A DNA stretch of 64,000 bases from Bacteroidales bacterium (GTDB lineage: Bacteria > Bacteroidota > Bacteroidia > Bacteroidales > GCA-2748055): contig JAGLOO010000024.1 in NCBI GenBank assembly GCA_023138875.1, positions 62,001-126,000 on the forward strand, in the 5' to 3' direction. Numbering within the stretch: position 1 is the first letter of the stretch; every line of letters begins with the position of its first letter. The position numbers and the translations under genes were made by a program. This document shows positions 12,707 to 18,111 of the stretch, piece by piece. Below the pieces are notes generated by a model that did no database searches, had not been told where the DNA came from, and was given only the letters and a program-made list of their open reading frames with translations.

Positions 12707-13537
12707 TTAAAACATGGGGTAGGGAAGGGTGGATTTCTGGGATTTCTTTTCCTGCCGGCGCTCCTTCCTGGACTTTGCCCTGGCAGCCTCACTGATGTTC
12801 ACAATATTGCCAAATCGATAGCCTACAATCAGATTGATAAACAAGAAGTTATTCTGTTCTGTGGCCATGATGGGGATATCCCTTGGATAGACCGTCAGAC
12901 TCACGCCGGCTTCCAGCGCATGGATGATGGCATCCCGTTCGCTATATTCAAAACTGAGTCCTGCCTTACCAGTTAATCCGGGAACCACCCGCAGCTCATC
13001 AAATCCCATGAAAAAGGGACCACGCCCCCCTATCTGGGTCTGGTGAATGGCCGCATCAAATTTCCTGTAGTCCCATGTAGTGGCCTCCCCGATGGATGAG
13101 AAGGTAAAGACCTCATAATAGATGGGTTTGAGGAAACCAATAGAGAGCCCTCCGCTGTAAAACATTCTGACAGAAATTCCAGTTTTGTCGTATTTCCTGT
13201 ACAGTTCTTTTTGCCAGCCCGCCATCCCTTTTAATTCCCAAAAAAGATTCTCTTTCCCAAAGACATAGCGATGTGTGCTGTAGTTATACGGCACTTGGGT
13301 TTTTACTTCTTTTGGATGCTTCACATAGGTCAGGTCTCCATCAAGGATGAATTGGTTCCTGGCATTTCTCCAGAATCCATACCTGTAATTCGCACCAAAT
13401 CCATTGGAATTGAGGAATCCTCCATAGGAGCTTTCATTCCTGAACATGACCCTTTTTTGCTCATCAATCTCACCCTGTCCCATCAAAGGAAGTATAGCTG
13501 ACCATGTGATCGATATGAGTATAAGGTACTTTCTCAT
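12707..13537 (-). CDS. Secreted protein of unknown function
   Basis: A 276-residue protein with a signal peptide (about residues 1-20, cleavage near LMG/QGEID). The mature part has alternating aromatic and polar strands (FGANYRYGFWRNARNQFILDG and similar), which suggest an outer-membrane beta-barrel or related beta protein, and a basic C-terminal tail (AARAKSRKERRQEKKSQK). No family was recognised. It has no operon partner: gapA lies downstream behind its own promoter, and the small lipoprotein gene upstream has its own terminator. Confidence 0.6.
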   Translation of the reverse strand: MRKYLILISITWSAILPLMGQGEIDEQKRVMFRNESSYGGFLNSNGFGANYRYGFWRNARNQFILDGDLTYVKHPKEVKTQVPYNYSTHRYVFGKENLFWELKGMAGWQKELYRKYDKTGISVRMFYSGGLSIGFLKPIYYEVFTFSSIGEATTWDYRKFDAAIHQTQIGGRGPFFMGFDELRVVPGLTGKAGLSFEYSERDAIIHALEAGVSLTVYPRDIPIMATEQNNFLFINLIVGYRFGNIVNISEAARAKSRKERRQEKKSQKSTLPYPMF

Positions 13538-13601
13538 TGATAATCAGGAATTCTGCTCTTCAAAAATAACGAAAAAAAGAGTGGATTGTTGATGCCGGGA
13601 C

Positions 13602-13631
13602 AAAAAAAAAGATTTACCGGGAGTAAATCTT
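13602..13631 (-). terminator. Rho-independent terminator of the 41-residue lipoprotein gene
   Basis: On the minus strand AAGATTTAC and GTAAATCTT form a perfect 9-bp stem around a 5-nt loop, followed by a T tract of about nine residues. It lies 32 bp after the stop of the small lipoprotein gene. Confidence 0.85.
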
Positions 13632-13663
13632 CATGCCTTATAAAATAGGATACTTGTGACCGA

Positions 13664-13789
13664 TTAACCGTCATGCTCGGTTTGCTCGGTGTCAGCCTGG
13701 CTGTAAGCCGGACAGACCTGCTTGTTGCAAGAACTCATGAGAATACCCACCGCAAATACAACTGCTAGTATGATTGCTGCTCTTTTCAT
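13664..13789 (-). CDS. Small lipoprotein, 41 residues
   Basis: An ATG at 13789 opens a 41-residue frame: a Lys-Arg start, a hydrophobic stretch AAIILAVVFAVGIL, then a lipobox LMSSC with the lipidated Cys at 21. The mature peptide is only 21 residues (NKQVCPAYSQADTEQTEHDG after the Cys) and carries a second Cys. The gene has its own -7 box (13824-13831) and a perfect terminator 32 bp after the stop, which strongly supports expression. After lipidation it should sit in the inner or outer membrane facing the periplasm. The function is unknown. The nitroreductase ends 122 bp upstream. Confidence 0.8.
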   Translation of the reverse strand: MKRAAIILAVVFAVGILMSSCNKQVCPAYSQADTEQTEHDG

Positions 13790-13823
13790 GGCATTTTTGT
13801 TTTGTTCCGGTATTGATATGCTA

Positions 13824-13831
13824 CAAATATA
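13824..13831 (-). promoter_or_regulatory. -7 box for the small lipoprotein gene
   Basis: On the minus strand the bases read TATATTTG, an exact TAnnTTTG match, 34 bp before the ATG. The upstream -33 region is T-rich without a clean TTTG. Confidence 0.55.
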
Positions 13832-13911
13832 GAATATATCTTAAAAGAAAAAAATTGTATGTATTATGTAAAACTCATCACGGGAGAAAAAGTTTTACAA
13901 ACGGTCTATTT

Positions 13912-14661
13912 TTATTGATTATTCATAAACCCCTGTTGTTCTAATATGTCAATCAATGCCCTGGAAAACAAAACATTATCCGTCTTTTTATACCTTACAT
14001 CGGTAAATACCTGAGCCAGGGTCTCCTTGTTATTCTCTTTGACAAACTCTTGATAAGTTGTGATTAACTCCTTTTCCCTGTAGAATTTTTCAATGTCCGG
14101 GTCTGAATAATCCCTGTATTTCTCCATATGAACAACGGCTGCCAGGGGAAGCCGGTCCGTCAGATCCGGTTCTTCATCGGGGTAACCCAATGTAACGGTT
14201 GTAACCGGTACCACACCTTGTGGCAGGCCAAGGATGTCGATGATCCTCCCGGCAGTGTATGTGGTTGTTCCCAGGTAACAGATACCCAGTCCTGCATCCT
14301 CTGCTGCTACACACACATTCTGGGCCACCAGCAGGGCATCGATGGCAGCTGTAAAAAACGAAAGGAAATTGTCATATCCGGGTTCAGCATTGCGGAGCCT
14401 GCACCATTTGTTAAACCGGTTGAAATCAGCACAGAAGGTGAGAACAACAGGCGCCTGTATTACCATAGGCTGGCTGAAGTGGCAGGGAGCCAGTTCCTCC
14501 TTGATGGCATCATCCGTGGTTACAATGATGGAATATACCTGCATGTTGCCCGTGGTAGATGCCCGGATCCCGGCTTCAAGGATTCTTTGAAGAATGTTTT
14601 CCGGAACCGGTTCATTTTTATATTTCCTGATGGATTTGTGATTGAGCAGTGTGTCGATCAT
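13912..14661 (-). CDS. Nitroreductase-family FMN protein (NfsA-like)
   Basis: A 249-residue protein from the ATG at 14661 (MIDTLLNHKSIRKYKNEP), where the HKSIRKY start motif of the family contacts FMN. VAAEDAGLGICYLG is the second FMN segment, and the TLGYPDEEPDLTDRLPL region resembles NfsA/FRP-type oxidoreductases. These are cytosolic NAD(P)H-dependent flavoproteins reducing quinones, nitro compounds or flavin. The natural substrate is not identifiable. It appears monocistronic: a TATTTTTG box lies just upstream and the neighbour on the other side is divergent. Confidence 0.88.
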   Translation of the reverse strand: MIDTLLNHKSIRKYKNEPVPENILQRILEAGIRASTTGNMQVYSIIVTTDDAIKEELAPCHFSQPMVIQAPVVLTFCADFNRFNKWCRLRNAEPGYDNFLSFFTAAIDALLVAQNVCVAAEDAGLGICYLGTTTYTAGRIIDILGLPQGVVPVTTVTLGYPDEEPDLTDRLPLAAVVHMEKYRDYSDPDIEKFYREKELITTYQEFVKENNKETLAQVFTDVRYKKTDNVLFSRALIDILEQQGFMNNQ

Positions 14662-14677
14662 GATTAAGATATTTGGG

Positions 14678-14685
14678 CAAAAATA
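14678..14685 (-). promoter_or_regulatory. Candidate -7 box for the nitroreductase gene
   Basis: On the minus strand the bases read TATTTTTG (TAnnTTTG), 16 bp before the ATG at 14661. No clear -33 element is found at normal spacing. Confidence 0.4.
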
Positions 14686-14799
14686 ACCAATATAATTTGC
14701 TCCGGATGATGCAAAGTTGAAAAACATGCGTTAGCGTTTAAAATATCCGGTATGAATAATTATTTTCACATATTCTTTTATAATTCACTAAACCTCAAT

Positions 14800-17700
14800 A
14801 TGATGAAATACTTAAATCAATCCAGGTACTATTTAATGCCTGCTTTACTCATTATTTCCCTTGTATTCTTTCCGGTTGAGATGCAATCAAAAGAGAAGAA
14901 AAAGAAGGATGAAGAGAAAACTGAGGGGGTAGACTCAAAAATTTATAGTGGATTGAAGTGGCGGAGCATTGGTCCGGCCCTGACCTCGGGCCGAATTGCT
15001 GATTTTGCTGTGAATCCGGAAAATCACAGTGAATGGTATGTAGCTGTTGCCTCAGGGAATGTATGGAAGACCTCTAATAACGGAACTACCTTCAAGCCCG
15101 TATTTGACAAGGATGGAACCTATTCTACCGGTGTGATTACCATGGATCCAAACAATCCTAACATGTTATGGCTGGGAACAGGGGAAAACAACCACCAGCG
15201 GGCGCTTGGTTATGGAGATGGTGTTTATAAATCTGAGGATGGAGGAGAATCCTGGAAAAACATGGGATTAAAAAATTCAAGGCATATTGGTGGGATCGTT
15301 GTGGATCCAAGGAATTCCGATGTGGTCTTTGTTGCCGCTGAAGGTTCGGCATGGGGACCTGGAGGAGATCGTGGTCTATACAAAACAACAGATGGTGGTG
15401 AGACGTGGAAAAAGGTACTTGAGATCAGTGAAAATACTGGAGTAAACAATGTAGTGATGGATCCGGTGGATCCTGATGTGATGTATGCCACCAGTGAACA
15501 ACGAAGGCGGCATGTGTTTACCAAGATCGGAGGCGGACCCGAGTCGGCTGTGTACAGATCCACCGACGGGGGAGAGAGCTGGATCAAATCCATGAAAGGA
15601 TTGCCAGAAGTGCATATTGGAGGTATGGGAATCGCCGTATCTCCCGTTGATCGGAATGTGGTGTACCTGATCATGGAAGCCGCAGAAGGAGAAGGTGGGT
15701 TTTTCCGTTCAGAGAGCAGGGGAGCTTCCTGGAGTAGGATGAGTGATCATGCCAGCAGTGGACAGTATTATAATGAGATTTATTGTGATCCTGTGGATGT
15801 GAACAAAGTATACTCCATGGAGACTTACTCAAACATAACCATGGACGGAGGTAAGAATTGGAGTCGATTGGGTAATGATAACCGGCATGTGGATGACCAT
15901 GCATTGTGGATCGATCCTTCCGACTCCGATCATTTCCTTATAGGAGGCGATGGTGGGGTATACGAATCATTTGATGGTGGGGAGACTTACCAGTTCAAGT
16001 CCAACTTGCCTGTGACCCAGTTCTACAGGGTATTTGTGGACAATGAATTCCCTTTCTATAACGTATACGGGGGAACCCAGGATAACAATACCCTGGGAGG
16101 ACCTTCCATGAACAAAAGTTCGGCTGGTGTGAGCAATGAAGATTGGAAAGCAATCCTGGGCGGCGATGGTTTCTGGTCTGCTGTGGATTCTAAGGACCCG
16201 AATATTGTATACTGTGAATACCAGTATGGGAACATGAGCAGGCACGACCGCCGAAGCGGAGAGAACATTAATATCAAACCCCGACCCGGAAAGGGCGAGG
16301 ATACCTATAAATGGAACTGGAATGCTCCACTGGTGATCAGTCACCATTCCAACACCAGGCTTTACGCCATGGCCAATAAGGTTTTCAGGTCGGATGACCG
16401 GGGTAACTCCTGGGAGGTGATCAGTGAGGACCTGACTTCGGGAACTGACAGAAACACCTGGCCGGTAATGGACCACTACTGGAGCTGGGATGCGGTGATG
16501 AAGGATGTGTCAACCAGTTTATGGGGAACAGGCGTTTCCATCTCTGAATCCATGCTTGATGAGAGCCTGCTTTATGCCGGTACGGATGACGGGGTTGTAT
16601 CCATTACTGAGAATGGAGGAGAGAGATGGAAGAAGATACAGAGTTTTCCGGGAGTGCCAGAATACACCTATGTGAGTGACCTGCTGGCTGACCGGTTCGA
16701 TACCAATGTGGTGTATGCCACTTTTGACAACCGGAAACGAGATGATTTTACACCCTATGTGTTGAAAAGTACGGATCGGGGAAATAGCTGGGTATCCATT
16801 GCTGGCAACCTGCCGGACAACGAAACGGTGCATGCCATTGAGCAGGATCCGGAAGTGCCCGGACTGCTTTTTGTGGGGACAGAATTTGGATTCTACTTCA
16901 GCCTGGACGGAGGAGCAGAATGGACAAAACTCAAATCAGGCATGCCCACCATCAGTGTGCGTGATATGGCCATCCAGGAGCGGGAGAATGACATGGTGCT
17001 GGCCACATTCGGACGAGGCTTTTATATTCTGGACGATTATACTCCTTTACGCGAACTTGCGAAGGAAAAAGAGATCATGGAGAAGGCGGCACATATTTTT
17101 CCAGTGGCTGATGCGCTGATGTATATGCAGACCAGGGGGAAAGGCAGTCAGGGATCGACGTTTTACAAAGCAAAGAATCCTGATTTTGGAGCCACGTTTA
17201 CATACTTTTTAAAAGAGGTGCCTAAAACCATGAAACAGGAGCGCCAGGAGAAGGAGAAAGAGCTATTCAAAGAGAAGCTACCCATTCCACAGCCCACCCG
17301 AGAAGAGTTGCGGATGGAGGAAGCTGAGCAGGATCCACAATTGATCTTTACTGTGTATAACGAAGATGGTAATGCCATCAGGAAATTGACTAAAAAGGCA
17401 TCCAAAGGGATCAACCGGATCACGTGGGATCTGCGTTATCCGTCCACACGTCCGATATCTTCCAGTGCTTCTGGGTCCGGTAGCAGAGGAGGGTCATCGA
17501 GCGGAAGTGGATTGCTAGCTATGCCCGGGACCTACAGTGTGGGTATGGATATTTTAGAAGGTGGGGATGTGATTGCGCTGGTGGAGCCCGTACCCTTCGA
17601 TGCAACCTTGCTGCAGCATGCTACCCTGCCAGCGAAGGATCATCAGTCGCTGGTGGCATTTCAGAATGAAGTATCTGAACTCTCCAGGGTAATGACCGGA

Positions 17701-18111
17701 ACGCACCGCATGGCCCAGGAGCAATTGGGGAAACTGACCTCCATCAAGAAAGCCCTGGATCAGACTCCTGGCGCAGAAGTTGAGATGATCCGAAAGGTAT
17801 TGGACCTGGAGGGACAATTAAGGGATCTGCTGTACACGCTTGAAGGACCCCAGGCCAAGGCCAGCTCAGAAGAACTTCCACCCATGATGATGCCATTGAA
17901 CCGACGCTTGAGTGCGATGATCAGAACCCACTGGTCGTCAACCTCGGATCTGACTAAAACCGAGACCGACCAGCTGGAAATCCTCAAAGAGGAGTTTCCG
18001 CCGGTGCTGGACAAGCTTGAGCAGGTAGTGGATGAGATCAGGCAACTAGATTCTGAGCTTGAGGAGTTGAAGGCACCGTGGACTCCAGGAAGGGTGCTGG
18101 AGATGGATTAA
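14800..18111 (+). CDS. Large BNR/sortilin-repeat exoprotein (annotated elsewhere as glycosyl hydrolase)
   Basis: About 1103 residues from the ATG at 14800, which gives a signal peptide (ALLIISLVFFPVEMQS) before a Lys-rich segment. The frame is open 16 codons earlier without a better start. The body has many BNR/Asp-box repeats (for example SEDGGESWKNM, TTDGGETWKKV, STDGGESWIKS, STDRGNSWVSI), forming beta-propellers like the VPS10/sortilin and xyloglucanase-like families. A Ser/Gly linker (SSSASGSGSRGGSSSGSG) and a helical C-terminal domain ending PWTPGRVLEMD follow. The catalytic role is not shown by sequence; secretion is likely. A 28-bp copy of its 3' end lies downstream at 18349. Confidence 0.8.
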   Translation: MMKYLNQSRYYLMPALLIISLVFFPVEMQSKEKKKKDEEKTEGVDSKIYSGLKWRSIGPALTSGRIADFAVNPENHSEWYVAVASGNVWKTSNNGTTFKPVFDKDGTYSTGVITMDPNNPNMLWLGTGENNHQRALGYGDGVYKSEDGGESWKNMGLKNSRHIGGIVVDPRNSDVVFVAAEGSAWGPGGDRGLYKTTDGGETWKKVLEISENTGVNNVVMDPVDPDVMYATSEQRRRHVFTKIGGGPESAVYRSTDGGESWIKSMKGLPEVHIGGMGIAVSPVDRNVVYLIMEAAEGEGGFFRSESRGASWSRMSDHASSGQYYNEIYCDPVDVNKVYSMETYSNITMDGGKNWSRLGNDNRHVDDHALWIDPSDSDHFLIGGDGGVYESFDGGETYQFKSNLPVTQFYRVFVDNEFPFYNVYGGTQDNNTLGGPSMNKSSAGVSNEDWKAILGGDGFWSAVDSKDPNIVYCEYQYGNMSRHDRRSGENINIKPRPGKGEDTYKWNWNAPLVISHHSNTRLYAMANKVFRSDDRGNSWEVISEDLTSGTDRNTWPVMDHYWSWDAVMKDVSTSLWGTGVSISESMLDESLLYAGTDDGVVSITENGGERWKKIQSFPGVPEYTYVSDLLADRFDTNVVYATFDNRKRDDFTPYVLKSTDRGNSWVSIAGNLPDNETVHAIEQDPEVPGLLFVGTEFGFYFSLDGGAEWTKLKSGMPTISVRDMAIQERENDMVLATFGRGFYILDDYTPLRELAKEKEIMEKAAHIFPVADALMYMQTRGKGSQGSTFYKAKNPDFGATFTYFLKEVPKTMKQERQEKEKELFKEKLPIPQPTREELRMEEAEQDPQLIFTVYNEDGNAIRKLTKKASKGINRITWDLRYPSTRPISSSASGSGSRGGSSSGSGLLAMPGTYSVGMDILEGGDVIALVEPVPFDATLLQHATLPAKDHQSLVAFQNEVSELSRVMTGTHRMAQEQLGKLTSIKKALDQTPGAEVEMIRKVLDLEGQLRDLLYTLEGPQAKASSEELPPMMMPLNRRLSAMIRTHWSSTSDLTKTETDQLEILKEEFPPVLDKLEQVVDEIRQLDSELEELKAPWTPGRVLEMD
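18076..18103 (+). repeat. Direct repeat, copy 1 (3' end of the BNR gene)
   Basis: These 28 bp encode the PWTPGRV...E end of the BNR protein. A similar copy (about 22 of 28 bases) lies at 18349-18376 in the same orientation, flanking remnants of a nucleotidyltransferase/HEPN pair. Confidence 0.7.

Follow-up and report, generated by a model that had tools for sequence, protein, structure and literature searches.

The DNA analysed here, a stretch of 64,000 nucleotides referred to as the window, carries on its minus strand a very short gene flanked by two genes of the same orientation, encoding a nitroreductase (13912-14727) and a predicted outer-membrane β-barrel. The 41-residue product (MKRAAIILAVVFAVGILMSSCNKQVCPAYSQADTEQTEHDG) begins with MKR, followed by a hydrophobic stretch, the sequence LMSSC and a mature part of 21 residues. 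Signal peptide, lipobox and lipidation Cys can all be recognized by eye, and Cys21 is presumably the lipid-anchored residue. A previous sequence-only reading had proposed the lipobox LMSSC with Cys21, the 21-residue mature part and a second Cys, all of which were borne out, the second Cys being residue 26. The features of the locus are listed in Table 1.

Table 1. Features of the lipoprotein gene and its barrel neighbour in the window
Feature	Position	Strand	Basis
Lipoprotein ORF, 41 aa, stop included; family motif S-S-C-x4-8-C-P-A-Y	13664..13789	minus	homologues, alignment, dN/dS
Codon of Cys21, predicted lipid-anchored residue	13727..13729	minus	invariant in 46 aligned rows
Codon of Cys26, second Cys, C of CPAY	13712..13714	minus	invariant in 46 aligned rows
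TAnnTTTG promoter box TATATTTG of the lipoprotein gene	13824..13831	minus	invariant in 15 aligned sequences
Intrinsic terminator of the lipoprotein gene, hairpin and T-run	13602..13632	minus	kept in 16 aligned sequences
TAnnTTTG-like box TATTTTTG before the barrel gene	13561..13568	minus	sequence match
Predicted 8-stranded outer-membrane β-barrel, 276 aa, conserved neighbour of the lipoprotein	12707..13537	minus	neighbour clustering, reverse search, structure prediction

An exact TAnnTTTG box and a perfect terminator had also been claimed, and both were confirmed. The box, TATATTTG, lies 34 nt upstream of the ATG and is conserved among relatives. By itself it is weak promoter evidence; TAnnTTTG occurs 45 times on both strands of the window. 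It counts because TATATTTGTA is invariant across 15 aligned upstream regions (the window being one of them), together with a T-run farther upstream. The terminator contains a perfect 9-bp inverted repeat (AAGATTTAC/GTAAATCTT) within an 11-pair hairpin (-9.3 kcal/mol) and a run of nine T that starts inside the stem, and the unit ends at 13602. Under a strict definition, neither strand of the window has another such site, and all 16 aligned sequences (window counted) retain the stem and the T-run. A generic terminator scanner made no call at this position, because it requires three G-C pairs in the stem and this one contains just two. The TAnnTTTG-like box before the barrel gene (TATTTTTG) is a possible promoter of that gene's own. 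With its own promoter and terminator, the lipoprotein gene in the window would allow peptide production in excess of the barrel.

A short ORF with conserved flanking DNA could be spurious, or the conserved unit could be a small RNA. The substitution pattern argues strongly against both: among the 12 genus members with the 41-codon frame (63 of 66 pairs usable), summed dN/dS is ∼0.11 with many synonymous changes (median dS 0.98, median dN 0.11), and the protein is conserved over many families. Moreover, the region 13400-14000 gave no Rfam match even at E ≤ 1. A chance ORF or an RNA was therefore rejected and has a next to negligible probability; from its codon pattern, the ORF is near certain to be a real protein gene.

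One check proposed in the sequence-only reading was a search for homologues with conserved residues, and such homologues were found. A profile built from 23 members matched 228 of 395 Bacteroidia genomes at E ≤ 1e-5 and 326 of them at the looser E ≤ 0.01. We use the former number because weak matches may be due to the signal peptide alone. The genome lists behind the peptide and barrel counts were transcribed by hand; the barrel total of 306 was reproduced, and the peptide list stands without such a check. In a sample of the whole phylum, 15 of 247 genomes matched at E ≤ 1e-5 (9 of 122 when counted by genus), all of them the window genome or members of its class. This sample is far poorer in the peptide than the class sample and includes many genomes of the same class without a match at 1e-5, and the family is therefore widespread but patchy. 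Of 61 genomes searched, 54 matched at E ≤ 1, a figure that includes weak matches. Within the genus, 12 of 17 other genomes match below 1e-15, the remaining five being 65-83% complete. The window genome itself carries one paralogue on another contig (59% identity).

The sequence features of the family were derived from 80 non-randomly chosen loci, comprising 60 high-scoring class loci, nearly one per genus, and 20 from relatives (two of them paralogues). Of these, 78 were parsed by script; the two others (L082 and L115) carry CPAY too. The mature part of the 78 peptides spans 16-30 residues, with 4 to 8 residues between the two Cys and no third Cys in any of them. The second Cys begins the motif CPAY in 67 cases, CAAY in five, CPAM in three, CPAF in two and CDAY in one. 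Invariance was judged from alignments, because the motif filter itself demands C..C.A[YFM]: in 46 hand-selected aligned rows, M1, C21, C26 and A28 never vary, and conservation reaches at least 90% at K2, S20, P27 and Y29. None of the C-terminal residues is conserved, and the mature part as a whole retains hardly anything beyond Cys+1 and Cys-Pro-Ala-Tyr. Diverged peptides with CPGF, CPKF or CPGV in place of CPAY were seen upstream of the barrel at six loci (L208, L209, L210, L212, L232, L233), where the Cys-Pro stays. No Pfam or NCBIfam model exceeded its cut-off for the window peptide, and scans of other members gave weak E-values only. A PDB sequence search with the peptide profile returned chance-level matches only, and the literature listings contained nothing on the family. 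By sequence, this is a so far unnamed family of tiny, predicted lipid-anchored proteins of Bacteroidia.

The partner that the previous reading had missed is the barrel. Seen from the peptide, a barrel of 243-319 residues lies downstream in 58 of the 80 loci, on the same strand in 57. Seen from the barrel, 46 of 53 loci, taken from named genome records, have a peptide on the same strand within 400 bp upstream. The gap between the two genes in these 46 loci has a median of about 104 bp and is at most 30 bp, as in an operon, in 11; gap lengths rest on rule-chosen start codons, and two are negative. The first ORFs outside the pair are of 19 kinds upstream (6 recurring, 13 singletons) and 11 kinds downstream (7 recurring, 4 singletons), counting automatically called ORFs of at least 80 aa. 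Given such varied outer neighbours, the pair therefore survives rearrangement. The description of a self-contained 41-residue lipoprotein gene is thus supported but incomplete: coding sequence, promoter and terminator are conserved and the gene looks singly transcribed in the window's genus, but it evolves together with the downstream barrel gene, and in the 11 loci with short gaps no more than 30 bp separate the two.

The wider surroundings vary. Recurrent neighbours at the 80 loci are a lipoate synthase (42), an OsmC-like protein and, encoded on the opposite strand, a uracil-DNA glycosylase (41 each), followed by sortilin-like (32), short Omp85 (30) and YtxJ-like (21) proteins. The window's own pair is unlike this class locus, its neighbours being the nitroreductase and a GAPDH. 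The lipoate synthase, OsmC-like, YtxJ-like, uracil-DNA glycosylase and GAPDH proteins are putative, being named from their sequences. Close to the pair in the window, on the plus strand, lies the gene of a 1119-aa sortilin/Vps10-type protein (14752-18111; Pfam PF15902).

The barrel was modelled with AlphaFold2 on 43 aligned rows (pLDDT 85.8), and the model has eight long strands, as expected of a predicted 8-stranded outer-membrane barrel. Foldseek gave E-values down to 2.2e-5 (Ail), and VIA-align gave Z scores of 16.9 for the top row, a Legionella porin, 16.4 for NspA and 15.7 for OmpA and OprF. Identity to the structural matches is about 6-18%. The predicted fold is shared with NspA, OmpA, OprF, OmpX, Ail and OmpW, and assignment to a single known barrel family was rejected, since both programs point to the common 8-strand fold and no family stands out. 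Sequence searches against Pfam, NCBIfam and the PDB gave nothing above chance level for the window barrel. Among the residues conserved in 90% or more of the barrels are Q21, G22, H74, G94, K95, N97, K137, P138, I139, Y140 and Y141; outer and inner loops were assigned from loop length. The barrel occurs in 306 of the 395 class genomes, nearly always as a single copy, and its family, too, is unnamed and unstudied. When viral contigs were scanned with the barrel, 38 stretches fitted a pattern, none of them encoding a relative. At two loci of one family (L232 in G304 and L233 in G123), the barrel match crosses one in-frame stop (TGA and TAA, respectively).

Each partner also occurs alone. Among the 395 class genomes, 191 have both, 115 the barrel only, 37 the peptide only and 52 neither, a modest association (odds ratio 2.3, uncorrected for phylogeny). 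Thirty barrel-positive genomes without a match to the peptide profile were picked by hand: seven do carry an upstream peptide (CPKF in three, CPGV in two, CPGF and CPAY in one each), and the other 23 have none within 1.5 kb on each side. Of the seven barrel loci without a peptide, one (L155) starts inside the barrel gene, and four of the remaining six genomes have a peptide elsewhere (E ≤ 5e-12); for two barrel genomes (those of L160 and L168), no convincing peptide was found anywhere. Conversely, in families f66 and f77 the peptide lies near ung or near OsmC and LipA, partly at the same locus, with no barrel match. At three loci (L066, L092, L107) the peptide is found in another gene context, and in two genomes (G386 and G181) peptide and barrel are at separate places. 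Paralogues in the window genome (L122, G000:C55:39700-50528) and in a sister genome (L136, G013:C51) have no adjoining barrel; both share upstream neighbours encoding proteins of 519 and 619 aa.

These lone occurrences bear on the idea that the peptide acts by itself as a structural or filler lipoprotein, produced in large amounts in the manner of a much shortened Lpp or entericidin, and lies next to the barrel by inherited gene order, with no physical partnership. In the genus, the peptide gene is flanked by a promoter and a terminator of its own, diverged tandem peptide copies precede one barrel at 8 of the 53 loci (L169, L171, L172, L177, L178, L179, L186, L188), and lineages with a peptide but no barrel match, the modest co-occurrence and the paralogues just described fit this idea as well. 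Against it, the pair stays adjacent while the outer genes change, the fixed C-P-A-Y exceeds the needs of a lipid anchor, and no C-terminal residue is conserved, unlike in Lpp, which has a C-terminal Lys. We regard a bulk lipoprotein as possible, if rather unlikely.

Alternatively, the second Cys could be the working part of the peptide, as a thiol, metal or redox site at the outer membrane, through a disulfide within a homodimer or with another protein. The invariance of C26 in the 46 rows, the lack of a third Cys and the thiol-related neighbours (OsmC-like at 41 of the 80 loci, YtxJ-like at 21) would be in keeping with this, but the neighbours in the window are of other kinds. Furthermore, A28 is equally fixed and P27 and Y29 are almost as constant, a pattern suggestive of a turn or binding motif. 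A disulfide linking the peptide to the barrel was ruled out for the window, where the barrel has no Cys, and is likewise impossible for the 28 of 43 barrels that are Cys-free after residue 25. We consider a Cys-centred function improbable.

A third possibility is suggested by the short Omp85 protein, in which a POTRA or Omp85 domain scores over the Pfam cut-off: the peptide might belong to an Omp85/TAM-like assembly module consisting of a short TamA-like protein, the peptide and the barrel. At 9 of the 53 barrel loci, which are of the rumen Bacteroidales type, the first same-strand ORF upstream encodes the Omp85 protein, giving the order Omp85, peptide, barrel. At the 30 of 80 peptide loci mentioned above, its gene has the opposite orientation and is in most cases found on the far side of ung. 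The Omp85 family itself occurs in 314 of the 395 class genomes at E ≤ 1e-30. But at E ≤ 1e-10 it has no match in the window genome or in the 18 others searched from its genus and family, which mostly retain the peptide-barrel pair. Nor do the available portions of the BAM and TamL literature name such a peptide. We consider membership in such a module quite improbable. The adjacency may nevertheless be a lead to outer-membrane assembly, with the window pair doing without Omp85. At two rumen-type loci (L170 and L183), an Omp85-like protein, the peptide and the barrel are encoded on one strand, followed by what we take to be an M23-type peptidase.

On which side of the outer membrane the peptide would reside is suggested by its first mature residues. 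According to the portions of PMC12578637 at hand, at least two acidic residues among the first six after the lipid Cys mark Bacteroidota surface lipoproteins, and a related surface-exposure rule is given in PMC5080379. Two acidic residues in these positions, the mark of surface-exposed lipoproteins (LES), were found in none of the 78 peptides; other surface signals may exist. From this we infer that the peptide faces the periplasm from the outer membrane.

Sequence conservation, the gene pairing and the predicted barrel fold lead us to propose an outer-membrane lipopeptide that faces the periplasm and assists in assembling, anchoring or closing the adjacent barrel, its lipidation, location, docking and task being presumed; we give this role about an even chance of being correct. 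The acyl chains and the CPAY turn would sit against the periplasmic side of the 8-stranded barrel, with the variable tail as a flexible end, and the peptide would serve as an assembly, anchoring or closing subunit. The Omp85 protein near peptide loci fits a role in outer-membrane assembly. An AlphaFold model of peptide and barrel as one read-through chain showed no docking, with pLDDT below 50 for most of the peptide, and says little either way. Because of the missing docking in the model, the lone partners, the separated loci and the modest association, we put the partnership between peptide and barrel at even odds. More tentatively, and with a clearly smaller chance of being right, the pair could be a two-part outer-membrane device of Bacteroidia: a lipopeptide of ∼20 residues, reduced to a lipid anchor and Cys-Pro-Ala-Tyr, would be devoted as a subunit to one 8-stranded barrel, which it would plug, anchor or chaperone, accompanied in some lineages by a same-strand TamA-like Omp85.

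That two unnamed families stay together across much of a class points to an unstudied component of the outer membrane of Bacteroidota, a phylum in which the machinery assembling this membrane was only recently found to differ from its E. coli counterpart. They also illustrate that as few as 41 codons can make up an envelope gene conserved across many families. If the two-part device exists, no smaller lipoprotein subunit of a barrel complex is known to us. The peptide resembles entericidin and Lpp in its small size and single lipid anchor; neither of these is known to have a conserved CPAY or a fixed barrel neighbour.

Among known families, PG1828 (NF050142) is likewise a short Bacteroidota lipoprotein. 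The peptide matches it below the threshold, in the signal peptide and the residues just after it (E 0.029 for the window peptide; best 4.9e-4 among the 23 members). The window peptide scores 15.1 bits against a cut-off of 50, and the PG1828 profile has no match in the window genome at E ≤ 1e-5. Ten PG1828 matches, two of them over the cut-off, were inspected; they are mostly rich in Ala, Glu and Asp, one (L241) has other Cys, and none carries CPAY. Membership in PG1828 was rejected on these grounds.

BamH, I, J, K and M are, like the proposed peptide, lipoproteins of the same phylum working beside a barrel, but they are larger and surface-exposed, as described in the available parts of PMC12578637 and PMC12611786. 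Those parts name no such peptide and do not use the term 'small lipoprotein', and only the signal-peptide region (residues 1-30) matches BamK (NF053690; 15 bits versus 120), so that the reading as a BAM subunit was set aside. The TamL and TamA proteins of Bacteroidota, described in the accessible part of PMC12045153, are Omp85 proteins of outer-membrane homeostasis, and the Omp85 neighbour may be this TamA; what differs is that the neighbour has no match in the window's genus. Finally, the E. coli TolC lipoprotein partner (PMC13082787, as far as its available text goes) belongs to another phylum and another kind of channel and is likened here by description only, but as a lipoprotein acting with an outer-membrane channel it provides a model for the pair.
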